DNA of 30,721 nucleotides from a virus, in the IMG/VR virus record IMGVR_UViG_3300045941_000177, positions 1-30,721 of that record; one strand, given 5' to 3'. Positions within the stretch are counted from its first letter, which is position 1; the number at the start of each line of letters is the position of its first letter. The notes below the pieces were generated by a model. The model worked only from the letters and a program-made list of their open reading frames with translations, had not been told where the DNA came from and searched no databases. Made by a program: the position numbers and the translations under genes. Shown here piece after piece: positions 3,818 to 30,721 of this stretch.

Positions 3818-3835
3818 CGGCGCCGGGCGCTTGTG

Positions 3836-5630: not shown

Positions 5631-5633
5631 GGC

Positions 5634-6653: not shown

Positions 6654-6657
6654 GGCG

Positions 6658-8409: not shown

Positions 8410-8412
8410 GGG

Positions 8413-12476: not shown

Positions 12477-12477
12477 C

Positions 12478-13098: not shown

Positions 13099-13557
13099 CT
13101 AGGGACCGGGCGGGGCCTGATCCGTGGGGGGCTCGACGCCGACGCGGGCCAGCTCGTTCCGCGAGAATGCGGTGATCTTCGTGGAGAGGCGCACGGCGGC
13201 GTCGCCGAGCCGGCTCGCGGCGTGCTCCGTCAGGATGGGATCGACCGCGGCCCGCGCGACGAGCCGATAGTGAAAGCGGCCCGCCTCCTCCGTGCGCGCC
13301 TCGATCTCCTCCTTCGACAGGCCGGCGAGCCACGCCTGCCGCCGCTCGATCAGGGCCTTCTGCCGCTTCTCGTCATCCTCTGGCAGCTCGTCGTAGATAT
13401 GGGCAGGCACCGGTGGCATGAGCGATTCGCGCTCGCCGGCGTCGACCTTGCGAACGCGAATCGACATCGGCTCGCCGTCCTTGGACACAAGGCCGGGGTC
13501 CTCGAGGTCCATCTCTCCGGCGGCGATGATCTCGGATTCCGTCGCACGTCGCGGCAT
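13099..13557 (-). CDS. Tail assembly chaperone-like protein, first of a pair (lambda G position)
   Basis: A 152-aa, charged, mostly helical protein between the tail tube gene and the tape measure, the position of the tail assembly chaperone in lambda-like phages. It contains IRVRKVDAGERESLMPPVPA, then a helix rich in Arg/Lys/Glu (DDEKRQKALIERRQAWLAGL), and FHYRLVARAAVDPILTEHAA. It ends GVEPPTDQAPPGP. The stop TAG is followed immediately and in frame by the ATG of the next gene. This differs from the usual -1 frameshift between the two chaperone genes. A run of six C lies nine codons before the stop but is not a canonical slippery site. Confidence 0.7.
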   Translation of the reverse strand: MPRRATESEIIAAGEMDLEDPGLVSKDGEPMSIRVRKVDAGERESLMPPVPAHIYDELPEDDEKRQKALIERRQAWLAGLSKEEIEARTEEAGRFHYRLVARAAVDPILTEHAASRLGDAAVRLSTKITAFSRNELARVGVEPPTDQAPPGP

Positions 13558-13578
13558 ACAGCCTCCTAGTCGAGCGGC

Positions 13579-14616: not shown

Positions 14617-14618
14617 GG

Positions 14619-15122
14619 CTAGGCCACCTCCTTGGTGTCGCGGTAGCGGTACGTGACGAGCATGGTCAGCGTGATCTGCTGCGCAAAGTCCCCGGCCTCG
14701 TCGCCGTCATTGGTCACCCACTCGATGGGGTTCTCCCACCCGGAGCACAGGCGCTCGCCGCCAGCCCCGACCAGGCCGAGGTTCTTGGTCACCGTGGTCA
14801 GGAGATCGTCCTTGACGAGCTGCGCCCACTCCTGCGGCGTGCGGAGGCCCCCTTCGTCAAACGGAAAGGTCGCGTCGATCCGCACGCGCAGGAGCTGCTC
14901 GACATTCATCGACTGATTGATCGACGTGATGCTCGAGCGCGAGCCGCTGGCCTCGCGGAGGCGGATCCGCAGGAAGGACTTCAGCGTGCGCGGGGCCGTA
15001 TGGCCCATCTCGACGAGCGGCGGGTCTACGGGGTAGTTCCCGCCCCAGGGGCGCACGCCCACCATCCCGGCGAGGATCTCGCTGACACGCACGAGGATCT
15101 GCAAACCCTTGGGGTCGGCCAC
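14619..15122 (-). CDS. Tail terminator-like protein (lambda U position)
   Basis: A 167-aa protein beginning KGLQILVRVSEILAGMVGVR, with the central segment LKSFLRIRLREASGSRSSIT and the C-terminal strand AQQITLTMLVTYRYRDTKEV. The repeated pattern of a helical N-terminus and a final strand ending in YRYR is typical of phage tail terminator/completion proteins. The position between the Z-like and tail tube genes matches lambda gpU. Starts at ATG 15122, two bases after the upstream TAG, and ends in TAG two bases before the tail tube start. I consider the role probable but not proven by motif. Confidence 0.7.
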   Translation of the reverse strand: MADPKGLQILVRVSEILAGMVGVRPWGGNYPVDPPLVEMGHTAPRTLKSFLRIRLREASGSRSSITSINQSMNVEQLLRVRIDATFPFDEGGLRTPQEWAQLVKDDLLTTVTKNLGLVGAGGERLCSGWENPIEWVTNDGDEAGDFAQQITLTMLVTYRYRDTKEVA

Positions 15123-15124
15123 GG

Positions 15125-15703
15125 CTAGCTGTCCCCGCCCGCCGCGACGCCGCGGCGCAGGAAGGCCACCTCGTGCTGCAGGTTCTTCTCGAGCGTGGCC
15201 AGGCCGAGCGTGTGCATCGCGTCGCGAATCGCCTTCTTGCCGGCCACCCTGGGGATCGACGGCCCACGGAGCTCGATGATCGGCAGGCGGCCGGCGCCTG
15301 GCTCCCGACGGAAGACGCCGCGGTGCCCGCTACGCATGGTGGCGAGGAACGCCTGATGGATCCGCCGCCGCTGCCCGCCGAGTGAGTAGCTCACGCCGCG
15401 GCCCTTGCCGCGCGAGGGCTCCGGCCCGGCTGGGCGCAGCTCGACGAGCGGGATCCGGGTCCCACTGATCCGGATGCGCCCGGCCAGACGGTTGAAGGTC
15501 GCCTTCGTGATGTCCATCCGCTCGGTGACCTGGCGCACGGGCACGCCAATGTCCTCGGCGACCTCGCGCGCGGCCGCCGCGCGGACCGTCGTGAGCGTGC
15601 GGTTGATCGCGCGCGTGACCGCGCGCGGCACGCCGTTCTTGACATTGGCCAGGGCCAGCGTCAGGGCACGGTCGTCAAGCTTGATGGTGAAGCCGACGGG
15701 CAC
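15125..15703 (-). CDS. Minor tail protein Z-like
   Basis: A 192-aa, very basic protein resembling lambda gpZ: an early AVTRAINRTLTTVRAAAARE helix, then VPVRQVTERMDITKATFNRL, ARG/SGTRIPLVELRPAG, a RRIHQAFLATMRSGHRGVFR segment and AIRDAMHTLGLATLEKNLQH near the end. GpZ helps join heads and tails in lambda. The start is GTG at 15703, whose G is the last base of the upstream TAG (TAGTG). The longer upstream frame lies inside the preceding gene and is rejected. Stop TAG, two bases before the next ATG. Confidence 0.8.
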   Translation of the reverse strand: MPVGFTIKLDDRALTLALANVKNGVPRAVTRAINRTLTTVRAAAAREVAEDIGVPVRQVTERMDITKATFNRLAGRIRISGTRIPLVELRPAGPEPSRGKGRGVSYSLGGQRRRIHQAFLATMRSGHRGVFRREPGAGRLPIIELRGPSIPRVAGKKAIRDAMHTLGLATLEKNLQHEVAFLRRGVAAGGDS

Positions 15704-16056
15704 TAGACGGGCTCCTTGTAGACCATCGCGCGCACCTCGTCGCCGTCTACCTCGGTGACCACGTCCACCACCCACCGGTCAATCGGCCCGCCGGCCACCT
15801 CGGGCGCGCGCACCACCGCGCCCTTGCGCAGCAGGGGGGCGTCGGCGCGCCTGAAGCAGATCAGCTTGTCCCACCGCCGGAAGATCGAGGGGTCGAGCTG
15901 CTCAGGGACCGGCATCGGAGGCGGCGGCTGCATCACCACGGTGATGGCCGCCGACTCCGGCCCCTGGGCGAACTCGGCGAAGGTGGGCAGGGCCACGGTC
16001 GCCGGGACGCCGAAGTGCTGAAAGAGCACGTCGAGGCTCGGCCGGGCGTCCGTCAT
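15703..16056 (-). CDS. Head-tail joining protein (lambda FII-like)
   Basis: A 117-aa protein, the same length as lambda gpFII, and in the same position (after the decoration-like gene, before Z). It begins SLDVLFQHFGVPATVALPTF, has the Pro run QPPPPMPVPEQL in the middle, then LICFRRADAPLLRKGAVVRA and the C-terminal strands DRWVVDVVTEVDGDEVRAMV. The last part, a small beta barrel with V-D-x-V-T-E-V, is typical of FII/attachment proteins (the Phage_attach family). It would connect the DNA-filled head to the tail. Its stop overlaps the GTG start of the Z-like gene. Confidence 0.7.
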   Translation of the reverse strand: MTDARPSLDVLFQHFGVPATVALPTFAEFAQGPESAAITVVMQPPPPMPVPEQLDPSIFRRWDKLICFRRADAPLLRKGAVVRAPEVAGGPIDRWVVDVVTEVDGDEVRAMVYKEPV

Positions 16057-16077
16057 GGCGAGCCCCTGGCCGAAGCG

Positions 16078-16428
16078 CTACGCGAGCGCGGCGCCGAGGT
16101 TCACACCGTGCAGGACGACGAACCCCGTCGCGGAGGGGTTGACCGCCACCCTCGCCGCCACCCCTGCCTTGAAATTGCCGGTCGTCACGGTGGTGAACCG
16201 CTTGTTCGTGTCGTCCCAGTTGACCTGTTGCCCCTCGGTCCATGCTTGAGCGCTGAGCTTCGCGTGCTCCACGACGCCGAGCCGGAGCCCCCGGAAGGGC
16301 AGGGTCTGCGCGACCGTCTCCGTCGCGATCACCAGCACGTCGCCGATCTTCACGCCGACACCGGCGGTCACCCCGCCGGTGGGCGCGATGAACTCGAGGA
16401 TCTCGCCCGGCTGCACATAGCCCTTCAT
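16078..16428 (-). CDS. DUF2190-like capsid decoration protein
   Basis: A 116-aa protein starting MKGYVQPGEILEFIAPTGGV. It continues GVKIGDVLVIATETVAQTLP and LRLGVVEHAKLSA, then the strand-rich end QQVNWDDTNKRFTTVTTGNF and GVAARVAVNPSATGFVVLHG. This pattern (Pro-Gly-Glu start, V-x-G-D-x-V at 26-32, Ala/Val-Asn-Pro near the end) matches the DUF2190 family found next to capsid genes. Members are thought to be capsid cement or fibre proteins, the counterpart of lambda D. It directly follows the major capsid gene (51-bp gap). Confidence 0.8.
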   Translation of the reverse strand: MKGYVQPGEILEFIAPTGGVTAGVGVKIGDVLVIATETVAQTLPFRGLRLGVVEHAKLSAQAWTEGQQVNWDDTNKRFTTVTTGNFKAGVAARVAVNPSATGFVVLHGVNLGAALA

Positions 16429-16479
16429 CGCGCTGCCTCCTTGTCATGGCCCGGGGTGACCCCGAGCAGGTCGTCGGCG

Positions 16480-18570
16480 CTAGGCGCCGGGGTTCTTGTA
16501 GAAGCCGCGCCAGTCGATCACCTTCGCGCCGACGTCGTGCCGGCACTTCACCTCGATGCCGTCGACCTTGAAGCCGACCTGCGTCTCGACCACCGGCCCA
16601 TCCACCCCCTCAAGCATCGCGAGCTCGACCAGGTCGATCTGGTCGGCCGAGGCTGCCAAGTACCAGGAGACGGCCGAGGCGACATCGAGGCGAGGCTCCG
16701 CGACCACCGTCAGCCGGCCGCCGAAGGGGTTGACGTTGGACGACTGGCTCGCGAGCAGGTTCGTGCTCACGAACTGGTCGGCGATCGTCTCCTTGCCGGT
16801 CGGCACAATCAGGAGGCGCGGCACGAGGTTCAAGAACTGCACCGCGTCGACGCCCTTCTGCTGGCGCATCGCGGCCCGTGCGGCCCCGATCGGCGCGATG
16901 GCGATCGCGTCGGAGGTGCCCGAGAGGTTGCCATGGTTGGCGTGGAAGAGCGCGACGCCATCGCCCATGGTCGGGTTGCTGGTGATCTGCGCCCACACCA
17001 GGTCGGACTCGAGGTGCCGGGCTGACCGTCCGAAGAGGAGGGCGACGCGCGAGAAGGCGTCGGTGTCGTCGTTCACGAGGGCCTGGCGGGTGATGCCGAA
17101 CACGCGCCCGTAAGTGGCGAGCTGGTACTGCTCCTTGGCTTCGCCGATCGTCCCGCTGGTGAACTCCCCATGCTGGTTCACCGCGGAGAGCGTCGGCGCC
17201 TCACCGAGCTGGTTCCGCTTCACCGGCTTGAAGTCGGGAATTGTCGTCCGCCGCACGATCGGGCCGAAGGTTTGCGGGGCTTCCATGTAGGCCGCCCGCA
17301 GCGTCTTGTTCGCGACGTCGGCCAAGAGGTTCGCGTAGTCGGATGTCGTGTGCAGGCCGGCCCGCTGGTTCAGGCCGAGCGCCAGGCCCGCGATCTCCAT
17401 CTTCGACAGGCCGGTGGTCCGGACCCCGCGAGCCTGCAGGCAGATCTTCGCGGACTCGATCAGGGACAGGCCGCGGTAGTTCCGGCCGCTGTCGTCCAGC
17501 TTGAAGAGGCTCGGCGCGCACCGATGCAGCAGCGCATTCTCGAGGCCCCGCAGGACCGCGTCTTGCGGATCCACGCCGGGCACCATGACGATGCGCGGAC
17601 CGCGCTCGTCGCCGGCGCGCTCGCGGACCCGCTCCAGCACCCGCTCGAGCGCGTCAACCTTCGGCACCCGCTCCTCGATCAGGGCCTGCATGAACGCCAC
17701 CGGCATGTTCGCGTTGCGGCAGGCCTGCATGATCGACTGGACGCGGTCGCGCTCCTGCTCGACGCCGCGCTCGCGCTCGGCGTCGGCGACCTCCTCGGCG
17801 CTCGGCGGTGCGGGCGGCGCAGCGGGCGCCGGAGCTCCGGGGTCGAGGAGATCGGCGCGCTCATCGAGGTCGACGACCTCGGCGGGCTCGGTGGCGGGGA
17901 CGGCAGCGGGGGCACGACGGCTCATGGGTGTCTCCTTCGCGTCGCGCGTGACGATCACGCACGGGTTGGTCGGGGTCTTCTCGCCGGCGGCGCGAATCTT
18001 GGCGCCGTCGTCGGCGCCCATCGGCACCGCAGAGATCTCGTAGGGCTCCCAGTCGATCGCGTGGCGCCGCGGCACGCCGCCAGGCCCGCCGGTCGTCTGC
18101 TCGTACGTGTAGACGCGATAGCCCACGCTGAGATTGCGGATGATCCGGTCCTGAACGTCCTGCCACACAGGCTCCACGTCGGCGCGCTTCGAGAAGCGCA
18201 CGGTCGCCTCACCGCGCTTGCCATTCACCGTCGCGCTCTTGGGCTCGACGACGCCGATCACGTTGCGCAACGCGAGGGACATGTGCGAGTCGAGGACGGG
18301 CGCGCCGTTGTTGAGGCGGTCGATGCGCACGTGCTTCTCATCCAGCGACAGCGTCTCGATATACCGCTCATCGCGCAGCCAGTCGTAGCGCATCACGGGC
18401 GCGCCCACCGAGAACACGACGTCGACGGTCCGGGCCTCGCGGTCGATGCTGTCGGGTGCGACTTCGGCGCGGAACTCAAGCGCGGCCAGCTCCACCTGGG
18501 TCGTCGGCGGGGCGGCGGGCGCGCGGCGCTTCATGCGGGCCATGCTGCACGGCGGGCGCGCCGGCTGCAT
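16480..18570 (-). CDS. Prohead protease/major capsid protein fusion
   Basis: About 696 aa combining a head maturation protease and the major capsid protein. The protease region (about 30-195) has the HK97-type signatures GAPVLDSH (likely catalytic His 96) and RNLSVGYR (likely catalytic Ser 148), then EISAVPMGAD. A Pro/Ala/Glu-rich scaffold-like linker follows (about 215-300). The capsid part (about 340-696) includes SLIESAKICLQARGVRTTGL, RRTTIPDFKPVKRNQLGEAP, YGRVFGITRQALVNDD and NHGNLSGTSDAI. Cleavage after the scaffold would free the coat protein. Such fusions are known in a group of lambda-like phages. The start is ambiguous: ATG 18570 is chosen; TTG 18579 and ATG 18543 or 18534 are alternatives, none with a strong ribosome binding site. 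Confidence 0.92.
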   Translation of the reverse strand: MQPARPPCSMARMKRRAPAAPPTTQVELAALEFRAEVAPDSIDREARTVDVVFSVGAPVMRYDWLRDERYIETLSLDEKHVRIDRLNNGAPVLDSHMSLALRNVIGVVEPKSATVNGKRGEATVRFSKRADVEPVWQDVQDRIIRNLSVGYRVYTYEQTTGGPGGVPRRHAIDWEPYEISAVPMGADDGAKIRAAGEKTPTNPCVIVTRDAKETPMSRRAPAAVPATEPAEVVDLDERADLLDPGAPAPAAPPAPPSAEEVADAERERGVEQERDRVQSIMQACRNANMPVAFMQALIEERVPKVDALERVLERVRERAGDERGPRIVMVPGVDPQDAVLRGLENALLHRCAPSLFKLDDSGRNYRGLSLIESAKICLQARGVRTTGLSKMEIAGLALGLNQRAGLHTTSDYANLLADVANKTLRAAYMEAPQTFGPIVRRTTIPDFKPVKRNQLGEAPTLSAVNQHGEFTSGTIGEAKEQYQLATYGRVFGITRQALVNDDTDAFSRVALLFGRSARHLESDLVWAQITSNPTMGDGVALFHANHGNLSGTSDAIAIAPIGAARAAMRQQKGVDAVQFLNLVPRLLIVPTGKETIADQFVSTNLLASQSSNVNPFGGRLTVVAEPRLDVASAVSWYLAASADQIDLVELAMLEGVDGPVVETQVGFKVDGIEVKCRHDVGAKVIDWRGFYKNPGA

Positions 18571-18597: not shown

Positions 18598-18849
18598 TCA
18601 GGAGGACTGGCGCAGCCGAAGTGGTGAATCTTGCGAGCGAAGCCAGCCCTTGCGACACAGCGCGTCGATGTGCGCCTGCATGCCGGCTCGGCTCAGGGAA
18701 AAGCGCCGCGCCAGGTAGGCCGCACGGCAATTCTCCCCCGTGGTCTGGCGGAAGCGGACGATCTCGGCGAGGATGGCGGCCTGCTTGCGGGTCAGCGCGG
18801 GATCGTCGGCCAGGGTGGCGCGACGGTCCTCGAGCTGGGCGTCAATCAT
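18598..18849 (-). CDS. Small winged-helix DNA-binding protein
   Basis: An 83-aa protein that looks like a LexA/MarR-type winged helix. It has LTRKQAAILAEIVRFRQTTG (helix 1), CRAAYLARRFSLSRAGMQAH (helix-turn-helix with the recognition helix SRAGMQAHIDAL) and a wing KGWLRSQDSPLRL. It has no sensor or protease domain. Location between the portal and capsid genes is odd for a regulator; it may tune late transcription or have been inserted as a passenger. The ATG 18849 overlaps the preceding gene by ATGA. The stop lies 27 bases before the chosen capsid start. Confidence 0.7.
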   Translation of the reverse strand: MIDAQLEDRRATLADDPALTRKQAAILAEIVRFRQTTGENCRAAYLARRFSLSRAGMQAHIDALCRKGWLRSQDSPLRLRQSS

Positions 18850-19052
18850 CTGGCCAGGAGGTCGCCTTCGATTGCGGCAATGGCGGCGTCGCGGCCGTCA
18901 CCGAAGCAGTGCCCGCAGCACGTGCCCCGCGGGGGACGCACGGCGCGCGCCCCAGCCAGGAGGTCCTCGAGCGTCTTCGCTGGTGTGGGGGTAGCGGGTG
19001 GACACGCCGCGGTCGCGCCGCCCGCCTGACGGTCCTGCAGGTCTCGGATCAT
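18846..19052 (-). CDS. Small Cys-containing hypothetical protein
   Basis: A 68-aa protein. ATG 19052 is preferred over GTG 19073 because AAGGAG lies seven bases before it. The N-terminal half is Ala/Pro/Thr-rich (ATAACPPATPTPAKTLEDLL). The C-terminal half carries a short Cys cluster, GTCCGHCFGDGRDAA, with a C-x-x-C element that could bind metal with a partner. It is coupled to the winged-helix gene by ATGA. I do not recognise a function. It may act with that gene, since the pair is inserted together between portal and capsid genes. Confidence 0.6.
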   Translation of the reverse strand: MIRDLQDRQAGGATAACPPATPTPAKTLEDLLAGARAVRPPRGTCCGHCFGDGRDAAIAAIEGDLLAR

Positions 19053-21009: not shown

Positions 21010-21252
21010 TCAATGACAAACTGCCGCCAGGCCAGCGTCTCGGGCGCAGACCCGGCACTTCGCCTCCGTCACCCGGCCGGGCCGGCCCGGCCGGGTCCCC
21101 GTCGCCTTGAACCGCCACCACCACGCCTCGGGCCCCGGGCGCTCCGTCTCCGCCCCGCATGCGCAGCGCTGGTAGGTGTAGCTTCGCGCGGAGTAGCGCT
21201 GCCAGGCGGTCGCGACCGTGCATTGGCATGTCAGGCAGTGCACGCCGCTCAC
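21010..21252 (-). CDS. Small zinc-ribbon-like protein behind TerL
   Basis: An 80-aa protein starting at GTG 21252, which overlaps the TerL stop (GTGA). It contains three Cys pairs: CLTCQC (6-11), CAC (30-32) and CRVC (66-69), with a Trp-rich stretch between (PGPEAWWWRFKATG). The pairs suggest one zinc ribbon or two small zinc sites. Function unknown; a role in packaging is possible given its position but is not shown. A longer frame inside the TerL gene is rejected. Confidence 0.65.
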   Translation of the reverse strand: MSGVHCLTCQCTVATAWQRYSARSYTYQRCACGAETERPGPEAWWWRFKATGTRPGRPGRVTEAKCRVCARDAGLAAVCH

Positions 21253-23192: not shown

Positions 23193-23707
23193 GCCGGCGC
23201 CCCCGCCGCAAGCTCCTCGAGTACCTCACGCACCAAGCCCTCGAGCACGACCAGGTCGGCCGCCCCCAGGTGCGGCAGCCGCTGCCGGGCCCGCGTCGGC
23301 AGGCCGAGCAGTGTCGTCCGCGCCTGCAGCACCATCCCCGCCCATCGCGTCTCGACCTCCGCCGCCGGCACCAGCTCGCGCTTCTTCCGCGCCGTCTGCA
23401 GCTCAAAGGCCTCCGCCCGGGCCAGCCGCTCCCGCAGCGTCGCGGCGGCCAGGTCGGAGGGCGCCGGTGTCGCAGCGCCGTTCGCCTTCACCCGCGGCCG
23501 CGTGTGCGCCGCCCACTCCGCCCGCGCCTTCTCCGCGTCGAGGATCATCCAGCGACCGCGCAGATCCCGTTGCACCGACGCCGACGTCAGGCGGCCCATG
23601 CGGATCGCCAGCCGCACCGATGGCAGCGCCCAGCCCTCGGCGCGCGCGAACGCCGACAGGCTGGCCGGACCCGTCGCCGCGGGCTCTAGAGTTTTCTTAT
23701 TCCCCAT
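23189..23707 (-). CDS. Terminase small subunit (Nu1-like)
   Basis: A 172-aa DNA-recognition subunit. The N-terminal half resembles the winged helix of lambda Nu1 (SLSAFARAEGWALPSVRLAI, then RGRWMILDAEKARAEWAAHT). The C-terminal half carries the most recognisable part of the family (LRERLARAEAFELQTARKKR, ELVPAAEVETRWAGMVLQAR and LLGLPTRARQRLP). The protein binds cos and hands DNA to TerL, whose start overlaps its stop by ATGA. The start is ATG 23707, after TAGGTA. Only the 205-bp gap before it separates packaging from replication genes. Confidence 0.9.
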   Translation of the reverse strand: MGNKKTLEPAATGPASLSAFARAEGWALPSVRLAIRMGRLTSASVQRDLRGRWMILDAEKARAEWAAHTRPRVKANGAATPAPSDLAAATLRERLARAEAFELQTARKKRELVPAAEVETRWAGMVLQARTTLLGLPTRARQRLPHLGAADLVVLEGLVREVLEELAAGAPA

Positions 23708-23912
23708 TACCTACCTGAATTTCGCGCCCGCGCTGACCCGCGATCCCTGGCCGCCGGAAGAACCTACGGCAGCCCGGTGGTGGGGCCTCGTTGTTCGCGA
23801 GAAAAATTCCACGGCGGCGCGCGGACCGTTTGGCGATGAGCCGGGGGCGTCGATCGCGCGCGAGTCGCCGGCCATGCTCAACGCTGTCGCATCTCGCGCC
23901 GGAGGTTGGCGG
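23708..23912 (-). other. Non-coding gap between the helicase loader and TerS; possible cos region
   Basis: This 205-bp stretch is the largest gap inside the gene array. In lambda-like phages the packaging site lies just before the small terminase gene, so a cos site is expected nearby; I cannot point to a particular nicking site. It holds AATTTTTCTCGCG at about 23804-23816 (read on the minus strand) and no convincing sigma-70 promoter. A 54-codon ORF (23875-23711) fits the TerS start (TAG GTA ATG) but has no recognisable domain, and I did not call it. Confidence 0.3.
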
Positions 23913-24584
23913 TCATAGGCGTGGGTAGTGTTGGTAGGCGTTGGCAGGCATGGCGGGTAGCTCGTCCTCCCAGCGACGGCCATTAAGCCAGGTCGCGGCG
24001 TGGGGGATCTTGTCGGCGGGGGCCTGAGCCCAGAGGCGGCGCTTGTGCTGCTCGACGGCAGCCTGGAGGGCGGCAGCGAGCTCAGGGTTGGGGTTGAGGG
24101 CGTTCCATGCCTTGAGGGCGCGGGCCTTGGCTTCACGCCGAGGGTACACGGACCAGAAGGCATCGAAGAGGTCATGTCCGTTGCGCGCGTGTATGTGTTC
24201 TTTCTTCTCTTCTCCTCTCTTCTCTTCTCCTCTCCTCTTAGACCGTAACGCTTTCATGCGTTCGGCGACTGTGCTATCTACTTGATACTTATTCCAATTC
24301 TTCCACGTTACGGTGAGCTCGCCGTTAACACTTTTGCCCTCCTCAATCGTGATGTTCGGCAGGTGTTCAATCGCTGTTCGAGCCATGTCCAACGTGTCTA
24401 CTTCGAGGACCTGCAGGAGTCGTTTTCCCGGGGGGGTGATGCGTAGTTTTCCGCCCTCACCGGCGAGAGCGGTCAGGGCCCCAAGGCGGGTCCACTGACC
24501 CGTCGCCTCTAGGCTCAGGTTGGCGTGGTCGGGGTCATCCAAGATGGACGTCCAGACCTTGAACCAGCGCTTGAGGTCGGCCAT
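23913..24584 (-). CDS. Helicase loader/replisome organizer
   Basis: A 223-aa replication protein. The N-terminal part (1-105) is winged-helix-like (RWFKVWTSILDDPDHANLSL, QWTRLGALTALAGEGGKLRI, VTWKNWNKYQ), like phage replisome organizers. A basic/acidic linker (115-130) contains two RGEEK units encoded by a perfect 15-bp tandem repeat. The C-terminal domain (140-223) has the widespread loader signature FWSVYPRREAKARALKAWN, then IPHAATWLNGRRWEDEL. It should bind the phage origin and bring in the helicase encoded directly upstream. Start ATG 24584, two bases after the helicase gene's TAG. The middle of the gene is AT-richer than its surroundings. Confidence 0.85.
   Translation of the reverse strand: MADLKRWFKVWTSILDDPDHANLSLEATGQWTRLGALTALAGEGGKLRITPPGKRLLQVLEVDTLDMARTAIEHLPNITIEEGKSVNGELTVTWKNWNKYQVDSTVAERMKALRSKRRGEEKRGEEKKEHIHARNGHDLFDAFWSVYPRREAKARALKAWNALNPNPELAAALQAAVEQHKRRLWAQAPADKIPHAATWLNGRRWEDELPAMPANAYQHYPRL
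24198..24239 (-). repeat. 42-nt polypurine tract with 15-bp tandem repeat, candidate origin element
   Basis: The plus strand from 24198 to 24239 is only C and T (42 bases). Within it a 15-base unit is repeated exactly (24204-24218 and 24219-24233), encoding RGEEK twice in the helicase loader. AT-rich sequence lies just upstream in the gene (about 24270-24310). A purine/pyrimidine-asymmetric, easily melted block inside the initiator gene resembles the layout of the lambda origin inside gene O. The origin role is an inference; I see no clear iterons. Confidence 0.5.
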
Positions 24585-24586
24585 GA

Positions 24587-26188
24587 CTAGGCGATCTCCT
24601 CAAACCGGAGGGTCTCGGGCGTGAAGGTCATGTCAATCACCCCGACGGCGCCGTCGCGGTTCTTGGAGACAATGCACTCGGCCTTGGTGTCGAGCATGCC
24701 GCGATGAAGGAACAGCACCACGTCGGCGTCGTGCTCGAGCTCACCAGACTCGCGCAGATCGGAGAGTGTCGGGCGGCGCCCCTCTTGGTCGCGCCCAGGG
24801 CGCGCGAGCGAGGAGAGGCAGAGCACAGGGAGTCGGCAGGTCACGGCAAGGGTCTTCAGGGCCTGACTCACCGCCTCGACCTGGAGCCGGCGCTCCTTGA
24901 TGTCGGCGGGGGCGCGGACGAGCTGGAGATAGTCCACAACGAGGAGGCCGAGGGGTGGGCCGGCCCAGCCGGTCACCATGGTCGAGACCTCGCCCACGGA
25001 GATCGCCTCGTCGGTGAGCCACACGGGCAGCCCACGGAGCTCGCGCAGCGTGCGCTCGACCTTCTCGTGTTCGATCAGGGTGAAGTCCGCGCGCTTGAGG
25101 GCCGAGGCCGAGACGCCGGAGGCTTGCGCGAGCAGGCGCCGCGCCAGGGCGAGATTGACCATCTCGCGGCTCACCACGAGCACAGCGCTCCCGTCTTCCG
25201 CGGCCCCGCGCGAGATCTGCAGGGCGAGCGCGGTCTTCCCGACGCCGGGCCGGGCGCCCAGGAGGACGAACTCCCCCGCCTGGTAGCCCCCGCCCAGGAC
25301 GCGGTTGAGCTTCGCGAACGGCGTCCGGAGGACGGGCGCCGGGCCGGCGCGCATGGAGGACTCGAGCTGATCGAGCACGGCGCCCAGCGGGACGGGGCGG
25401 AGCCCTTGGCGATCCCGCGAGCCGGCGAGTACCTCGCGACGGTCGATGGAGCGCACGCACTTACGGACGGAGGCGGGATCGAGTGGGGGCGTGCAGTGCT
25501 GGGCGAAGCCGTCCAGCAAGAGCGCCTCGACGGTCGCCGCGTCGAGGCCCACGCCGAGGAAGTACCCGGCGAGCCGCGTGCACGTCACGTCACGCTGGCC
25601 CTCGCCGACCCCGTGGAGGGCTTCGAGCACCCAGCTGGAGCCGACGCCCCCTCCGCCCGACACAGGCCCCGGCAAGCGCTGCCCGTGGATAAGGTCGAGC
25701 AGCTCGCTGGGCGCTGGCGGCAGTGGCCAGGTCAGCGGGACCTCCCATTCGTAGCGCGGGCCGTCCGGGTGGATGGACGGCGGAGCGACCACGATCCCGA
25801 CGCCGCGAATGTCGACCTGGGGCTTCTTGCCGTTCGTCGTGAGCAGGCCCACGCGATCTGGTACGTGCCCCGGCGCCGAGAGAAAGACATGCTGCCCATG
25901 GCCCGTGCGTGACCGCGGGGCGCCGGGGAGCAAGATGCCCTGCTCGAAGAGCAGGCGTTGCGCGGCGGCGCCGCCATCCAGATCGACGGCAAACGTTCCG
26001 CGGCCGAGGACCAGCGCCACGTTGGCGTCGGGCCACTGGCTCCACCACGTGTCGATCTCCTCGGGCAGCGGGGCGTCGCGCTGGTACGGGCGCCATTCCA
26101 CGAGTGGGCGCTTGGAGCGTGGCGCGCACGGGATGGGATGGAGCCCCATGGCGAGGTAGGCGCGCGCGGCCTCGTGGCAGGCGTTCAT
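24587..26188 (-). CDS. Prim-Pol primase fused to DnaB-type helicase
   Basis: A 533-aa bifunctional replication protein. The N-terminal Prim-Pol domain (1-about 170) has the acidic VDLDGG motif (D69, D71), SRTGHGQHVFL (H100) and VDIRGVGIVVAPPSIH (126-140), the three conserved motifs of archaeo-eukaryotic-like primases. A helical linker (190-255) follows. The C-terminal RecA-like helicase has FAKLNRVLGGGYQAGEFVLL, Walker A GARPGVGKT (311-319), SREM (340-343), Walker B LLVVDYLQL (415-423), LSDLRESGELEHDADVVLFL (475-494) and SKNRDG (508-513), all in DnaB order. It would make primers and unwind DNA at the fork. ATG 26188 is chosen for its ATGA overlap with the upstream stop; GTG 26200 is an alternative. 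Confidence 0.93.
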   Translation of the reverse strand: MNACHEAARAYLAMGLHPIPCAPRSKRPLVEWRPYQRDAPLPEEIDTWWSQWPDANVALVLGRGTFAVDLDGGAAAQRLLFEQGILLPGAPRSRTGHGQHVFLSAPGHVPDRVGLLTTNGKKPQVDIRGVGIVVAPPSIHPDGPRYEWEVPLTWPLPPAPSELLDLIHGQRLPGPVSGGGGVGSSWVLEALHGVGEGQRDVTCTRLAGYFLGVGLDAATVEALLLDGFAQHCTPPLDPASVRKCVRSIDRREVLAGSRDRQGLRPVPLGAVLDQLESSMRAGPAPVLRTPFAKLNRVLGGGYQAGEFVLLGARPGVGKTALALQISRGAAEDGSAVLVVSREMVNLALARRLLAQASGVSASALKRADFTLIEHEKVERTLRELRGLPVWLTDEAISVGEVSTMVTGWAGPPLGLLVVDYLQLVRAPADIKERRLQVEAVSQALKTLAVTCRLPVLCLSSLARPGRDQEGRRPTLSDLRESGELEHDADVVLFLHRGMLDTKAECIVSKNRDGAVGVIDMTFTPETLRFEEIA

Positions 26189-26637
26189 GCGGGCCGCCAC
26201 TGAACCTCGTTACCAGCAGCAATCCAGGCCCAATCTGCCCGACTGCCCCAGAAGAAGTTCCACAGCGCCATACCGTAGTACTCCGCGCTCCCCGAGCCAT
26301 GCGCGAAGTCAGCGTGCGCAACAGATGGATCGAGACCAACCAAGAGCACGCCATCACCGCCGTACCTGTCTCCGTAGAAGTCTTCGGCGGCCGGGTGCCC
26401 CACAAACTCGTCGAGGCTCCGGTAGGGTTTGCACTCGACGAAGAGCCGGTGGCCAGACGGACACTCGGAATGTCCGCACTTCCACGAGATCTCAAAGTCG
26501 GGGACCCAATCCGCGAAGTCGACCGGCTCGTAGGCCCATCGTATGCCGAGGCCCTCGAAGAATGCGGCCCATCGGGCTTCGAGCCGCGACCGAAAACGGA
26601 CGCCACGGAACACCGCGGGCCGGCAAACGAACTTCAT
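26185..26637 (-). CDS. PD-(D/E)XK nuclease-like protein
   Basis: A 150-aa protein with the endonuclease pattern FRSRLEARWAAFFEGLGIRW (E20), WAYEPVDFADWVPDFEI (D47) and HRLFVECKPYRS (E68-x-K70), i.e. the E, D, E-x-K catalytic arrangement. A Cys/His pair region (CGHSECPSGH) sits between. The C-terminal part is aromatic-rich (EYYGMALWNFFWGSRADWAW). Proteins of this kind are frequent in phages and are thought to cut or process DNA during replication, recombination or host DNA breakdown; the exact substrate is unknown. It overlaps the helicase gene by ATGA and its own start is ATGA-coupled to the HNH-like gene. Confidence 0.75.
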   Translation of the reverse strand: MKFVCRPAVFRGVRFRSRLEARWAAFFEGLGIRWAYEPVDFADWVPDFEISWKCGHSECPSGHRLFVECKPYRSLDEFVGHPAAEDFYGDRYGGDGVLLVGLDPSVAHADFAHGSGSAEYYGMALWNFFWGSRADWAWIAAGNEVQWRPA

Positions 26638-27134
26638 GGTGTGGGCTCCTCCCCGCGCAGCTCCGGATGCCGAGCCTCGATCTGGCGAATGACCGTATCC
26701 AGGGACTCCAGCTCCCGCATGATGTCCCGCGTCTCCTGCAGCGCGGCCCGAGACGCCTCCTGGCAGCGAGCACAGAAGGGGATGAGCGGCCCACGCTCAC
26801 CGCCGAGTACGACGGGGCGCACGTGCTGCATCGTGAGCCCGATGCGCAACCGGACACACAAGGTGCGTGATTTGCCGCAGAACGCGCAGAGATCGCCGTT
26901 GGCGGTCCACACGGCGTCGGGCGTCGGGTCGCCGGGCGCGTGTGGCCGTCGCGCGCGCGCGGAATCCTTCGGCAGCCACTGCATGCCCGCCAGCGGCGCC
27001 TTCGATTGGCAGGCCGGGCAGCGGGCTCCGACTGAGCCGCCGTTGACCTCGAACGTCTCCAGTCCGACCCGCCCGCAGTGGCGACAGGCAAGGGACGCGC
27101 GTTGAGCCTCGAACTCAGACCTGGTTAGTGGCAT
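26634..27134 (-). CDS. HNH-endonuclease-like zinc protein
   Basis: A 166-aa protein. The N-terminus has a zinc ribbon (CRHC at 17-20, CPAC at 39-42). The middle has CAFC (83-86), then GLTMQHVRPVVLGGERGPLI (H104) and FCARC (120-124), which follows the C-x-x-C ... H-V-x-P ... C-x-x-C layout of small HNH nucleases. The C-terminal 40 residues form a helix, possibly a coiled coil (ALQETRDIMRELESLDTVIR). The usual second His of the nuclease is replaced by Gln (QHV), so cleavage activity is doubtful. Starts at ATG 27134 inside the last codons of the RusA gene (10-bp overlap). Confidence 0.65.
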   Translation of the reverse strand: MPLTRSEFEAQRASLACRHCGRVGLETFEVNGGSVGARCPACQSKAPLAGMQWLPKDSARARRPHAPGDPTPDAVWTANGDLCAFCGKSRTLCVRLRIGLTMQHVRPVVLGGERGPLIPFCARCQEASRAALQETRDIMRELESLDTVIRQIEARHPELRGEEPTP

Positions 27135-27658
27135 CGGGTCACCGCCTTATCCACGATTGTGTCGACAGGTAGCGCGGGAGAACCGATCGACCCCGTGGAT
27201 AGCGGCAAGGTTGACACCCCGGAGCAAAATTTTTTTGCGGCCGAGACGAACGAGAATGGCGCGATGGTGATCTCGACCCCGGTCCGCCGGTCCTCGCGAT
27301 CGGTGGCGAAGCGCTTCCGCGCGACCAGCTCGACCACCTGGCTGTCGTCCTGCCAGAAGACCGCGTTGAACTGGTCGGTGAGCTTGTGCAGGAGGTTGTC
27401 GAGGTCCGGGCGCTTGAGCGGCACGACGTCGGCCTTCCGCGCGCGGGCCGGGCGCGGCATGTAGAACGTGGCCACGAAGACGAGCGGCCCCTCGGCGGGG
27501 ACGCGCGGCGCGACGGTGCGGCCCACCTGCCCGACGAGGAGCGCCCAGTCGGTGTTGCCGCGCTTCGGCACCATGTGCACCTTGTCGCCGCGGTGGAAGC
27601 GCGCGACGCCGCCCACCTTCATGGACTTGGGCAGGCCGGCCACGAAGAAGGAGATCAT
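27125..27658 (-). CDS. rusA: RusA-type Holliday-junction resolvase with C-terminal extension
   Basis: A 177-aa protein of the RusA family, which cuts four-way DNA junctions. Key residues are visible in LKRPDLDNLLHKLTDQFNAV (D85, D87, D95) and FWQDDSQVVELVARKRFA (D104, D105 and the following Lys). A typical RusA ends near residue 135-140. Here about 38 further residues follow, after Ala-Ala-Lys-Lys-Phe encoded by an A-A-A-A-A-A-A run (27236-27230). This run is a canonical A_AAA_AAA slip heptamer. A -1 shift would give a shorter tail of about 22 residues. The start ATG 27658 is preceded by GGGGGAGG within the tiny upstream gene and overlaps its stop (TGATG). Confidence 0.9.
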   Translation of the reverse strand: MISFFVAGLPKSMKVGGVARFHRGDKVHMVPKRGNTDWALLVGQVGRTVAPRVPAEGPLVFVATFYMPRPARARKADVVPLKRPDLDNLLHKLTDQFNAVFWQDDSQVVELVARKRFATDREDRRTGVEITIAPFSFVSAAKKFCSGVSTLPLSTGSIGSPALPVDTIVDKAVTRCH

Positions 27659-27756
27659 CAGCGGTCAGCCTCCCCCTGTGCCGCCCTTCGGGGGGTTGAT
27701 CGGCGCTCGTTCTTCCCGGGCTCCGGGTTGAGTGGCGGCACCGAGGGGGTGCTCAT
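27658..27756 (-). CDS. Tiny 32-aa coupled ORF before rusA
   Basis: ATG 27756 overlaps the preceding gene's stop as ATGA, and this ORF's TGA overlaps the RusA start as TGATG. It encodes 32 residues rich in Pro, Arg and Glu (MSTPSVPPLNPEPGKNERRS, ending QGEADR). Its last codons carry the ribosome binding site of rusA (GGGGGAGGC). The overlaps on both sides suggest translation, either to make a peptide or simply to keep ribosomes coupled to rusA. No function can be read from the sequence. Confidence 0.5.
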   Translation of the reverse strand: MSTPSVPPLNPEPGKNERRSTPRRAAQGEADR

Positions 27757-28058
27757 CGGTCTGGGTCCTGCTCAAAGAGCGTCCATCCGCCCGGTCCTTC
27801 GCGTCCGACGATAGGCGGGTCTTCGAGTTCGCGCGTGAGTTCAAGGCCGCGCTGGAGAATTGCTGCCGCCCGTGGGCCTGGCACCACGGCCAGGAAGGCC
27901 ATCGCATCGATCATCCACTCGCGGCGCTTGGTGTCGGAGTCCTCCCAGGAGTCGCCACGGAGGAGCCACCGATGCGCTTCCTCGCGCCACCAGCCGACCG
28001 AGCGCCCGCCGCAGTCGGGACAATGGCAGACCACATGCACGGGCTGGGGGCCGGTCAT
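27753..28058 (-). CDS. Small Cys-containing protein
   Basis: A 101-aa protein (ATG 28058 overlaps the preceding stop by ATGA). It begins QPVHVVCHCPDCGGRSVGWW, a C-x-C-x-x-C zinc-like motif followed by Trp. Then comes a helical region (DTKRREWMIDAMAFLAVVPG) and a C-terminal helix (AAAILQRGLELTRELEDP). The rest reads GREGPGGWTLFEQDPDR. It is not recognised. The zinc-like start and short length match several neighbours in this block. Confidence 0.65.
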   Translation of the reverse strand: MTGPQPVHVVCHCPDCGGRSVGWWREEAHRWLLRGDSWEDSDTKRREWMIDAMAFLAVVPGPRAAAILQRGLELTRELEDPPIVGREGPGGWTLFEQDPDR

Positions 28059-28306
28059 GCCGATCTCTTGACGATCTTCAGGGCGGGCTTCTTGCGCTTC
28101 CGTCGCGTGTTCCGCTCGATCTGTCGCAGGCGGGCGGGGATGCCGATGAACTCCCCGCAATCCAAGCGAGCCCGAATCGCTTGGAGAGCCTCGCGGATGT
28201 CGAGCAGGATGCACCGCTGAACGGAGTCGGCGTCGTACTTTCCTTCAGCGGTCTGCCACACGGACCACTCCGTGTTGCGCGGTCTCTTGACGAGTCGCTC
28301 ACTCAT
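28055..28306 (-). CDS. Small basic hypothetical protein
   Basis: An 83-aa protein, very basic at the C-terminus (NTRRKRKKPALKIVKRS). The centre is a helical segment (SVQRCILLDIREALQAIRAR, then LDCGEFIGIPARLRQIER). The start region is RLVKRPRNTEWSVWQTAEGK. Two Cys occur but no clear zinc site. Its start at ATG 28306 lies within the end of the upstream small gene (8-bp overlap) and its stop forms an ATGA overlap. The basic tail would suit binding to nucleic acid. Confidence 0.65.
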   Translation of the reverse strand: MSERLVKRPRNTEWSVWQTAEGKYDADSVQRCILLDIREALQAIRARLDCGEFIGIPARLRQIERNTRRKRKKPALKIVKRSA

Positions 28307-28460
28307 CCCTCTCTCCGTCGCGGCGGTTGAGAATGCGGCGCTCGCGCTTGATGCCGATGCGCTTGTTCTTCGTGCCGCGCACGCGCATGTGGTGGCCGAG
28401 TGGACGCTTGCCCCAATAGTCCCAGCCGGGCGGCTTGCTGCCCTTCACAGTGCGGCTCAC
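28299..28460 (-). CDS. 53-aa basic hypothetical protein
   Basis: A short gene that is easy to miss: GTG 28460 directly follows the TGA of the upstream gene. It encodes VSRTVKGSKPPGWDYWGKRP, then LGHHMRVRGTKNKRIGIKRE and RRILNRRDGERDE. The start S-R-T-V-K-G-S-K-P-P-G-x-D-Y-W is a recurring pattern in small phage proteins, which supports the frame over a longer overlapping one in 28303-28677. The whole protein is strongly basic and probably binds nucleic acid or acts with an RNA-like partner (inference). Confidence 0.7.
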   Translation of the reverse strand: MSRTVKGSKPPGWDYWGKRPLGHHMRVRGTKNKRIGIKRERRILNRRDGERDE

Positions 28461-28754
28461 TCACCCGCTCCGTCGCGGCGTGGGGGTGGACCATTCGTTC
28501 AGCGCGGTTTCGTATAGACGCTTGACTGAGTAGGCCCCGGTGCGGTGATACGCGCCGCTCTTCACATCGCGCCGCACCAGACCGTTCTCGATTAGCGCAC
28601 GCAGAAGGGCAAGTCCGCGCTCGCGTTCCTCGGGGCGCAGTCTCATGTTCCGGGCGGCTGATCCTTGCTCCAGCCAATAGACGAACCTATCGGCCAATCG
28701 AACGAGCCCCAGGCGAGTGACCTTCTCAGCGACCGCTGCGGTACTGTCTCGCAT
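28461..28754 (-). CDS. Small winged-helix-like hypothetical protein
   Basis: A 97-aa protein with ATG 28754, coupled to its upstream neighbour by TGATG. It has helices STAAVAEKVTRLGLVRLADR and ERERGLALLRALIENGLVRR, then DVKSGAYHRTGAYSVKRLYE. The alternation of a helix, a turn (LRPEERERG) and a hydrophobic strand pair resembles a winged-helix DNA-binding protein, but this is weak. The C-terminus is basic (PTPRRSG). A possible regulator in the early gene block. Confidence 0.6.
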   Translation of the reverse strand: MRDSTAAVAEKVTRLGLVRLADRFVYWLEQGSAARNMRLRPEERERGLALLRALIENGLVRRDVKSGAYHRTGAYSVKRLYETALNEWSTPTPRRSG

Positions 28755-29254
28755 CACGCCCCCCCCCTCCCGCCGAGCGTGGCGAGGAGGTGTGTAAAGC
28801 CGCACGTACACGCGCACTGGTCATCGTGTTCGGTGTGCTCGCCCTGGTCGTACCCGCACCGGACGTGTTCGCAGGTCTCCTCGTGCCAGGCATAGCGATC
28901 TAGCCCCGCCCGCACCGCGTCGAGGGCGGCTTGGAGTTGGGCCACCTTCTCGTCATGCCGCTCATGCTCACGATTCGTCGCCGCGAGAAGACCCTGGAGC
29001 ATGTCCCGCTCCTCCTCCACCCCTGCAATCCGAACACGCAGCGTTCGATTTTCATGGTCGAGGGCGTCTGAGATGCGATAGTGGACATACTGTGCGAGGC
29101 AGGCATCACCACCATGCAGGGGACAGCGGCCCGATTGCGCGCTCTGTCCGCTTCGCCCACAGATCGTTGCCGCCTCCACCTCGGCGGGGGTGACATACTC
29201 AGGACGCTGCGTACTTTCACTCAGCCGCTCGTCGGACTGGCGTTCAGCCGTCAT
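28754..29254 (-). CDS. Coiled-coil protein with Cys-rich ends
   Basis: A 166-aa protein. The start (ATG 29254, ATGA overlap) is followed by the segment CGRSGQSAQSGRCPLHGGDA, which has Cys spaced as in a zinc site. Residues 60-120 are a predicted coiled coil (DHENRTLRVRIAGVEEERDM, HERHDEKVAQLQAALDAVRA). The C-terminus is rich in Cys and His (HEETCEHVRCGYDQGEHTEH, then CACTCGFTHLL), probably a zinc-binding unit. Function unknown; the layout suggests a dimeric scaffold with metal-binding heads. It is much longer than its neighbours. Confidence 0.65.
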   Translation of the reverse strand: MTAERQSDERLSESTQRPEYVTPAEVEAATICGRSGQSAQSGRCPLHGGDACLAQYVHYRISDALDHENRTLRVRIAGVEEERDMLQGLLAATNREHERHDEKVAQLQAALDAVRAGLDRYAWHEETCEHVRCGYDQGEHTEHDDQCACTCGFTHLLATLGGRGGA

Positions 29255-29508
29255 CGCCACACCACGCCCGACCCGATGCACGAGCGGCAGGACTCTTGCG
29301 CGGGGTCCGTGTTCCCCGCAACGGGGAGCGGCCCCCACGGCGAGTAGAAACCTTGCAGCACCAGCCCCTTGCCCTTGCACACCGGGCAGACGTAGGGCAT
29401 GACGAGCACGGGCTCAAATGTCTTGCCGATGGCCGCGTAACTCGTGCTGTGCATGCCACACCGCCCACTGGTCGAACGGTCGCAGTCGCTACAGGCTGTC
29501 GCGCTCAT
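29251..29508 (-). CDS. Small protein with DnaJ-like zinc repeats
   Basis: An 85-aa protein with three Cys pairs: CSDC near the start, CPVCKGKG (41-48) and CRSCIGSG (74-81). The last two match the C-x-x-C-x-G-x-G repeat of DnaJ zinc fingers, which can fold as one two-strand zinc site. It lacks a J domain. It is linked by ATGA overlaps on both sides. Similar stand-alone fingers are common in phage early regions; the role here is unknown. Confidence 0.7.
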   Translation of the reverse strand: MSATACSDCDRSTSGRCGMHSTSYAAIGKTFEPVLVMPYVCPVCKGKGLVLQGFYSPWGPLPVAGNTDPAQESCRSCIGSGVVWR

Positions 29509-29831
29509 CCCCGCCCCTCCTCGGTGCGTGGCTTCGACTCAACCCATCCACAGTGCGTACAAACGCCCGGTACGGCACACAGGTACTCGCAAAGTGGGCA
29601 GTACTCCTTCCGCCTCGGCGAGTCCGGTCCACGACTCATCGGCGGGCCTGGGGGGTGGGGACGATATTCAGCGAGCCGGAATCGGTCATGGGGATTCCGC
29701 TTGCGCCACTCAGCGAGCACCTTCCGCGCATCCGCCCGACACAGGGCAACCCCCACGGTGGGATACCAGCCAGTAGGCTGCTCGCGATAACTCGCTTCTA
29801 CGACCCAGACGACCGGGATTCGCTGGCGCAT
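29505..29831 (-). CDS. Zinc-ribbon-like hypothetical protein
   Basis: A 108-aa protein. The N-terminal part is a beta-like stretch VVWVVEASYREQPTGWYPTV, then helix CRADARKVLAEWRKRNPHDR. The C-terminal 35 residues have CPLC, C and CTHC (CPLCEYLCAVPGVCTHCGWV), a compact zinc ribbon. ATG 29831 is preceded by GGGGAGGGGGAGC, a strong ribosome binding site, located inside the 10-codon ORF 29831-29863. Stop overlaps the next start (ATGA). Function unknown. Confidence 0.65.
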   Translation of the reverse strand: MRQRIPVVWVVEASYREQPTGWYPTVGVALCRADARKVLAEWRKRNPHDRFRLAEYRPHPPGPPMSRGPDSPRRKEYCPLCEYLCAVPGVCTHCGWVESKPRTEEGRG

Positions 29832-29863
29832 CACTGCTCCCCCTCCCCGGCGTGGCGGGTCAT
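29831..29863 (-). CDS. 10-codon ORF, possible coupling minigene
   Basis: ATG 29863 overlaps the upstream stop as ATGA, and the ORF's TGA overlaps the next gene's start as TGATG. It codes for MTRHAGEGEQ. The whole ORF is the ribosome binding region of the following gene, so its value is probably to move terminating ribosomes to the next start rather than to make a peptide. Whether it is really translated cannot be decided here. Confidence 0.3.
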   Translation of the reverse strand: MTRHAGEGEQ

Positions 29864-30057
29864 GGCTTGTATGATCCGTCACCACTGTTCAGCGCCTGCT
29901 TGATTGAATCGGGCAACTGGCAGACATGCTCCCGCATTGCCTCCCGCACCGCCTCGGCGGCGAAGGTCAAGATCATCTCGCGCAGCACATCATCACCGCG
30001 CAACCGAATGACCATCTCGGCCGGCAACTCCACCGCCCGCGCGCTGGGCGGGGTCAT
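29860..30057 (-). CDS. Small hypothetical protein
   Basis: A 65-aa protein with ATG 30057 (ATGA overlap). It reads MTPPSARAVELPAEMVIRLR, then GDDVLREMILTFAAEAVREA and MREHVCQLPDSIKQALNSGD. The middle is a strongly helical, acidic segment (VLREMILTFAAEAVREAMRE). It has a single Cys. A small helical protein of unknown role; it does not have the zinc pattern of its neighbours. Confidence 0.6.
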   Translation of the reverse strand: MTPPSARAVELPAEMVIRLRGDDVLREMILTFAAEAVREAMREHVCQLPDSIKQALNSGDGSYKP

Positions 30058-30275
30058 GGGCTCACCCGGTTGTGCGGGTGCGGCTGCCGGTCGCCGGGGA
30101 ACGCGAGTGGCATCATCCCGCCCTCCGTGTCGCAGGCACCGCAGATCACGAGCCCACACCCGAGACAACGATCGTGAATTGCACAGGCGTCGGCACCGCA
30201 GTGGGTGCAGCACCCAGACATACACGTCAGCAGTTCGCCCCTCGGCGCCACCGCGCGACAGGCTGCCAGGATCAC
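30054..30275 (-). CDS. Small Cys-rich (double zinc-site) protein
   Basis: A 73-aa protein starting at GTG 30275, which overlaps the upstream stop (GTGA). It carries a dense set of metal ligands: C-x3-CC-x2-C (18-26), C31, H34, C37, C40, C45 and C48 (CLGCGLVICGAC). This resembles a small cross-brace or B-box/RING-like zinc site (CTHCGADACAIHDRCLGCG). The C-terminal tail is Pro/His-rich. Function unknown; likely a protein- or nucleic-acid-binding zinc module. Confidence 0.65.
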   Translation of the reverse strand: MILAACRAVAPRGELLTCMSGCCTHCGADACAIHDRCLGCGLVICGACDTEGGMMPLAFPGDRQPHPHNRVSP

Positions 30276-30412
30276 GCCCGCTCCTTCGCCTTCTTCCCGC
30301 TCCCCGCACACACCGGCGCGCGCTCGGACGGATGCTCCCGCACCAGCCCGCCTTTCCGCAGGGCCACGCGCTTGTTGCACAGCCGACAGGTGCCACGCGG
30401 GAGCGTACTCAT
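30272..30412 (-). CDS. Small zinc-ribbon-like protein
   Basis: A 46-aa protein with ATG 30412 (ATGA overlap). It contains CRLCNKRVALRKGGLVREHP and then SERAPVCAGSGKKAKERA. The spacing C-x2-C ... H ... C is that of a small treble-clef-like zinc site. Short proteins of this sort (CxxCx(n)HxxxxxxxxC) are common among uncharacterised phage genes. The C-terminus is basic. Unknown role. Confidence 0.65.
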   Translation of the reverse strand: MSTLPRGTCRLCNKRVALRKGGLVREHPSERAPVCAGSGKKAKERA

Positions 30413-30633
30413 GCCAGCGCCTGCATCGCCGCTTCCAGCTTCGCCAGCTCGGCCTGCTTCTCGGCGATCCGCTGGGCCAGCAGATCCTTCAGCGGGTCGC
30501 CGTGGCCGTTGGTGGCCAGCACAGGCCTCAGCTTGACGACCTGGCGGGCCTTCCCCTCGCCATTCTTCGGGCAGTCCTTGCTCCGCGACGTGTGCCCCTG
30601 CTGCCCGCACGCCGTACACGTCCATTCCCCCAT
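30409..30633 (-). CDS. Zinc-knuckle and coiled-coil protein, start uncertain
   Basis: A 74-aa protein starting at ATG 30633 after GGAGGTATCGGTG, a good ribosome binding site. It has CTACGQQGHTSRSKDCP, a C-x2-C-x4-H-x6-C zinc-knuckle-like motif, then a helical C-terminus (DPLKDLLAQRIAEKQAELAK) that is likely a coiled coil. The same frame stays open to the window edge at 30721 and continues SGHCHHPEGRHGAACPKAA upstream, so the gene may begin outside the window. I give the conservative start. Confidence 0.6.
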   Translation of the reverse strand: MGEWTCTACGQQGHTSRSKDCPKNGEGKARQVVKLRPVLATNGHGDPLKDLLAQRIAEKQAELAKLEAAMQALA

Positions 30634-30721
30634 CACCGATACCTCCGGTTGCGCTGCCTTCGGACACGCGGCACCATGCCGCCCCTCGGGATGATGACAG
30701 TGGCCGGAGCGCCCCGAGCGA

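Follow-up and report, generated by a model that had tools for sequence, protein, structure and literature searches.

The stretch of DNA analyzed here (the window) is the entire IMG/VR record IMGVR_UViG_3300045941_000177, 30,721 bases long, to which all coordinates refer. Its GpA-type terminase, its portal and its capsid genes (PHROG and Pfam matches) are those of a tailed phage, one known from metagenome DNA alone, and all 44 genes drawn in it by our gene caller (trained on long genes from these phages, with Cys and His neutralized afterwards) lie on the minus strand. Our subject is a block of 12 minus-strand open reading frames (ORFs), from 30633 to 27658, numbered g1 to g12 in transcription order and spanning 32 to 166 codons each (74, 46, 73, 65, 108, 85, 166, 97, 53, 83, 101 and 32 amino acids, respectively). 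An initial annotation had described, at 27.7-30.6 kb, about a dozen genes shorter than 170 codons, almost all overlapping or touching, and this layout is confirmed: 10 of the 11 junctions overlap or touch (-4 in seven cases, and -8, -1 and 0 in one case each), the sole gap being the +28 bases from g4 to g5. This count assumes that g3 starts at GTG 30275, which is most likely the true start, because AAGGAG lies upstream and the GTGA overlaps the stop codon of g2; the alternative start, ATG 30221, leaves a gap of 50 after g2. The frame of g1 stays open up to the end of the contig, so that its true start may lie beyond the window. The same arrangement continues past the block, since all genes from g1 to g16 overlap or touch, bar the gap between g4 and g5, and g17 begins 2 bases after g16.

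Four-ligand Cys/His candidates are found in seven of the 12 proteins (g1, g2, g3, g5, g6, g7 and g11), the number originally reported. The g1 protein (30409-30633) has a CX2CX4HX6C zinc knuckle and a C-terminal tail that looks like a coiled coil by eye; it matches the zf-CCHC_6 knuckle family (PF15288) at 24.1 bits, above the curated cutoff of 22, through profile positions 4-21 of 42 only, the remainder of g1 lying outside the match. A CX2C...H...C motif is carried by g2 (30272-30412; phrog_6601, E-value 6e-5), and g3 (30054-30275), with the pattern CX2CX4CX5CX2CX4CX2CD and an HPH, may adopt a fold with two zincs. Its Cys spacing is like that of the RING, FYVE and B-box two-zinc folds, and several of its best PDB matches are of these types, although no sequence or structure match was significant. 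Structure predictions were weak, with a mean predicted local distance difference test score (pLDDT) of 57 for g3 (70-78 in its best ten-residue blocks) and 45 for g6, and a fold search on the low-confidence g3 model gave no Foldseek match at E<=0.001, a best PDB profile E of 0.13 and a best VIA Z of 2.6. In g5 (29505-29831) a ribbon-like Cys cluster lies at the C-terminus, and g6 (29251-29508) contains two DnaJ-like CxxCxGxG repeats and an N-terminal CxxC, scoring 14.5 bits against the central domain of DnaJ (PF00684, DnaJ_CXXCXGXG), below the cutoff of 32.7. The middle of g7 (28754-29254) is coiled-coil-like by eye and is followed by a Cys/His-rich C-terminus, and g11 (27753-28058) has an N-terminal CHCPDC plus a His. 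Metal motifs are absent from g4 (29860-30057), g8 (28461-28754), the basic g9 (28299-28460; weak match to phrog_7399, E 0.0039) and g10 (28055-28306), and g12 (27658-27756) is a weak gene candidate.

The density of zinc-type modules emphasized by the initial annotation is above chance. The seven four-ligand candidates compare with 3.1 expected when each protein is shuffled, and this number was reached in none of 5,000 shuffles; as the four-ligand rule was set after the motifs had been seen (and is wide enough to take in g2), the count of CxxC motifs, which is independent of that rule, is the cleaner test. CxxC is present in six of the 12 genes, where 1.97 would be expected (six being reached in a fraction of 0.0004 of 5,000 shuffles), and there are 11 such motifs in the block versus 2.6 expected (reached in 0 of 4,000 shuffles); leaving out any one of the CxxC genes keeps the shuffle fraction at or below 0.0085. 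The Cys content of the block is 4.4%, versus 0.94% across the 28 called genes below position 24,000, among which CxxC occurs in three, two of them belonging to the 11 small ones (21010-21252, with 8 Cys, and 18846-19052, with 4 Cys, both with low coding scores).

Small genes with CxxC are also enriched in the early regions of three phages picked by their match to the RusA or the helicase of the window, and thus not at random, at a lower density than in the block: 9 of 42 in the early region of TM4 (1.6 expected), 3 of 8 in the nin region of HK97 (0.7 expected) and 4 of 18 among the early genes of ctjLE16 (1.2 expected). The corresponding figures are 9/25, 8/15, 6/14 and 3/13 in four related contigs (G010, G048, G046 and G049), and 0/12, 1/17 and 2/10 in structural regions, taken as comparison. 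These counts use the deposited genes for the three named phages and our own gene caller for the relatives, within region limits that we chose. The block looks like a case near the high end of a seemingly general trend, with G048 equally high.

In a sister contig, G049 (IMGVR_UViG_3300045886_000087), positions 1-18219 match window 18219-1 with 1 mismatch and positions 30912-31075 are 97% identical to window 30721-30558; the comparison indicates the same phage, and joining the two contigs would give a genome of about 43 kb. Past the g1 knuckle, G049 lacks the g1 tail, g2, g3 and the head of g4, and the slots of g5 and g6 hold different small genes: that at 31300-31473 has a zinc-type motif, whereas those at 31470-31706 and 31703-31906 have none. 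What survives is a series of collinear, same-strand patches (43 bp at 88%, 31 bp at 94%, 54 bp at 78% and 21 bp at 100%), most of which lie at the start or end of a gene or close by, with one in the g4 core, where FAAEAVRE is kept; 19 overlapping stretches of the window, used as a control, gave 2 hits in total. A gene boundary seen in G049 falls inside g5, and for that reason g5 may be two genes. At this boundary stretch (window 29639-29665) the C-run is one C longer than in G049, possibly through a sequencing error, which bears on whether g5 is to be taken as one frame or two.

A similar block is shared by two other contigs. G046 and G047, from different metagenomes, have in common 4,962 identical bases, including RusA, g3 and other small genes; one flank of this shared block is 88-91% similar over about 1.5 kb, and elsewhere similarity is weak. 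Comparison of the terminase candidates gave nothing significant, either between these two contigs (E 3.1) or between G047 and the terminase of the window (E 1.5). An identical 97-base repeat stands at both ends of G046 (L139/L140), which suggests a complete circular assembly. In the contigs, and pending reads, the block appears to differ between near-identical phages, and a similar block appears to be common to phages with unrelated packaging genes. The gene beside g3 also varies: it is RusA in G046 and G047, a DksA/TraR gene in G048 and, in G010, a PD-(D/E)XK-like gene whose Pfam score stays under the cutoff. The same region of both G010 and G048 encodes a DksA/TraR-type zinc protein (PF01258, above cutoff).

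Conservation of the Cys/His positions in homologues, on which the initial annotation had staked its proposal, is found for some of the genes. The best test is G010, which was located via its terminase and then searched by plain tblastn, so that no Cys/His pattern was used. Its g1 relative has a knuckle that is 71% identical, with 3/3 Cys and the knuckle His kept, and its g3 relative is 47% identical, with 7/8 Cys kept (counting from ATG 30221) versus 14/43 of the residues other than Cys and His; its RusA is 56% identical to that of the window. The possibility of a single long g1 protein in G010 was considered and rejected, as another frame, with higher third-position GC content, fills the middle. 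Scans of viral contigs with Cys/His patterns gave four contigs for g1 and five for g3, and in these pattern-fetched relatives Cys/His conservation is partly by construction. The g1 knuckle ligands are also kept in three contigs fetched in this way, and the g1 relative in G051 scores 29.5 bits against PF15288. The G049 row of the g1 alignment was trimmed by us, since its frame continues without the g1 tail. The strict g3 pattern, built from two members, retrieved its five contigs from a collection of 2.9 million, and these reduce to three distinct sequences once near-identical pairs are merged; all five were also recovered by tblastn, and G-D and H-P-H, both outside the pattern, are invariant in them. 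A Fisher test on g3 (8/10 Cys versus 10/59 other residues) was not relied on, as the sequences had been fetched by their Cys pattern. For g2 there is one distinct weak relative, in G045/G048 (E 0.010), with the CxxC, the His and the last Cys kept.

Upstream of g1, in frame (window 30634-30721), G049 has a second knuckle-like motif, CX2CX6HX3C (by eye), of which the first Cys is a Ser in the window; in G010 a motif so spaced follows the knuckle on its downstream side.

No significant homologue of g5, g6, g7 or g11 was found in phage records, viral contigs or fetched loci. The protein search of 50,697 phage records covered g2, g3, g5, g6, g7 and g11, with no match for g2, g5, g7 and g11 and only matches at E >=0.9 (not used) for g3 and g6; for g1, g4, g8, g9, g10 and g12 the comparison was with the fetched loci only. 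A g5 match in these loci (E 0.045) was discarded as chance-like and outside the Cys part. Viral-contig scans with g16, g15 and g7 returned no relative, and those with the RusA and g1 alignments returned G010 only. A scan of genome contigs with the large terminase subunit (TerL) yielded 22 loci at 40-55% identity, mostly from alphaproteobacterial metagenome-assembled genomes, in which no block gene was detected (tblastn, E <= 0.1); when four of these genomes were searched with a g3 profile, only weak matches came up (best E 0.0275). NCBIfam and PADLOC gave nothing significant.

Downstream of the block, on the same strand, come a RusA-like Holliday junction resolvase (g13, 27125-27658; PF05866 at 1.5e-13 and 51.9 bits, above the cutoff of 22.8; phrog_140 at 4.3e-21), a possible HNH endonuclease with further CxxC pairs (g14, 26634-27134; phrog_7785, E 0.0024, below the Pfam cutoff), a gene with a PHROG match but no function named (g15, 26185-26637; phrog_21138, E 3.5e-13), a Prim-Pol and DnaB helicase fusion (g16, 24587-26188; PF09250 at 6.5e-28 and PF03796 at 3.2e-57) and a replication initiation protein (g17, 23913-24584; phrog_270, 4.3e-18), after which lies a putative small terminase (a conserved ORF preceding TerL). 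Upstream of the block, G049 has a Cro/CI-like gene (phrog_2439, 6.9e-8) and a CII-like gene (phrog_101, 1.8e-8; PF06892 at 32.4 bits, cutoff 26), as well as four more small genes in which Cys/His patterns are visible by eye, a 247-residue gene that no library named and that is RecT-like by eye only, and an ORF containing a C2H2-like segment. Given the overlapping or touching genes from g1 to g16, the RusA and replication genes after the block, and the Cro/CI- and CII-like genes upstream, we consider the block to be probably the accessory portion of an early operon in the lambda style, similar to a nin region.

In lambdoid phages the nin region draws on a family set comprising NinB/Orf, NinE, NinF, NinG/Rap and NinH. 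That of HK97 is annotated with ninB, ninE, ninF, HNH, RusA and ninH, and contains small overlapping genes including CxxC proteins. The likeness lies in a run of accessory genes that are small, overlap one another and adjoin RusA/HNH and replication genes, with CxxC proteins encoded by several of them; the block differs in its higher CxxC share (6/12 versus 3/8 in HK97, both small numbers). Lambda nin genes are described as dispensable, and as placed between the replication genes O and P and the antiterminator Q (PMC10695390), and the block difference of G049 is consistent with a similar dispensability for plaque formation. By this analogy the block would work like a nin region, but we do not class it as one, given that it has no match to a Nin family and stands in a different order relative to the replication genes.

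In such an operon the block genes would be co-transcribed early in infection with the resolvase and the replication genes, and several of them, which lack a clear ribosome site by eye, would be translated through coupling to the preceding gene. No minus-strand terminator-like site was found within the block by the terminator scan, and a promoter scan of 23700-30721 found 0 sigma-70-like sites where 0.5 would be expected, although such a scan has little power at this GC content. Each zinc module may stabilize a very small protein, whose binding partner would be nucleic acid or another protein (for the g1 knuckle, judging from its type, most likely single-stranded nucleic acid; g3, going by its Cys pattern, could be a two-zinc adaptor), and these proteins would be optional helpers in recombination, replication start or host reprogramming. 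None would be essential, the genes being individually dispensable, and they would be gained, lost and swapped, as in nin regions, through recombination in short conserved sequences close to the ends of genes. A more specific version, to which we give little credence, is that these boundary stretches form exchangeable slots allowing single zinc-stabilized micro-proteins to be swapped, probably against host defences or transcription, in strains that are otherwise identical over 18 kb.

Several observations weigh against the operon reading. No NinB, NinE, NinF, NinG or NinH match was found in g1-g15 (PHROGs and Pfam, with g3 in its 55-residue form), and the block precedes the replication genes g16 and g17 instead of following them. 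Four minus-strand terminator-like sites lie downstream of the block, at 23808-26618 (five in all, versus 3.3 expected), and coding support is weak for several of the block ORFs. The G049 contig stops soon after the block, so that RusA and the replication genes are not seen in it, and the window ends within the stretch shared with G049, a kind of place at which assemblies branch. Both cases of exchange rest on metagenome contigs, which may be chimeric; the terminase candidate of G046 is named by a below-cutoff match alone, and a near-identical pair, G045 and G048 (99.97% over 38,267 bases), shows no difference in the block.

The coding support also raises the question of whether part of the chain is unreal, with g5, g8 and g12 as chance frames in DNA of 65-70% GC. 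The gene caller drew neither g5 nor g12 (it also passed over g3, and cut g6 and g7 short), g5 spans the gene boundary seen in G049, and in a synonymous-codon coding test only g1, g2 and g9, of the 12 ORFs, had null fractions at or below 0.021, the values for g5, g8 and g12 (0.43, 0.46 and 0.27) falling within the null. This test is insensitive, however, because g15 also fails it despite its PHROG match. Starts and stops also interlock along the chain; we regard chance frames as unlikely, if a little more probable than the other alternatives. Somewhat less probable, in our view, is the interpretation of the initial annotation, a dedicated set of zinc-built proteins co-expressed to shut down or redirect the host. 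It can draw on the zinc-type motifs in seven of the 12 genes and on the DksA/TraR-type proteins at the corresponding place in G010 and G048. These are small C4 zinc proteins of a family in which TraR homologues, lambda Orf73 among them, reportedly bind the RNA polymerase of the host (PMC9239242). The PHROG and Pfam searches, however, gave no match of g1-g12 to DksA/TraR (PF01258) or to another named takeover protein. The candidates are limited to two weak matches of g6, one with an antitermination Q-like family (E 0.047) and the other with anti-TRAP (E 0.0034, with a score well under the cutoff). Calling the block a host-interaction set is too strong, because the zinc genes are not kept as a set in G049, the early regions of the three comparison phages are also enriched in CxxC, and the neighbors are genes of DNA metabolism. 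Overall, the initial interpretation is partly supported. Host action of some block members is nevertheless plausible, given the DksA/TraR genes in relatives and the reported binding of their homologues to RNA polymerase.

We give still less weight to a variable anti-defence cassette, in which the small proteins would neutralize host immunity and be swapped as defences change. Their small size, presumed early position and replacement between near-identical phages would suit it, but the RusA and replication context does not, and PADLOC gave no significant match for the nine block proteins and g15 submitted to it (best E 0.014, for g7), which is a weak test, as this is a library of defence proteins.

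A few features away from the block deserve mention. The contigs L003, L004 and L005 all start at one homologous position, which precedes the putative small terminase by 31 bases, and L002 begins 7 bases earlier; this fits a likely cos end near window 23738. In L107 (G002; 833-3859), a 95%-identical relative, the large terminase carries about 360 extra residues, inserted in frame behind residue 77, and the same is seen in L005 and, by matching pieces, in L004. This insertion, which the terminase of the window lacks, reads by eye like an intein (Ala start, HN|T end). In the sister contig, L147 positions 9949-10173 and 10334-10549 hold small genes that look like paralogues by eye, sharing RW-x-YxYxxxxG...RCPxH. 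Rfam gave no match at the gathering score in the window, L107 or L147.

Zinc-rich runs of small early phage genes were not found described in titles and the openings of abstracts in the literature, which does not show that descriptions are absent. A dense run of zinc motifs in a phage region of orphan genes suggests membership of a known kind of plastic accessory region. The window and G049 make up a naturally occurring, near-isogenic pair of phage contigs with different genes in the block, and g3, as a narrow family found beside RusA, DksA/TraR or a nuclease-like gene, is a good target for the question of what these small proteins bind.

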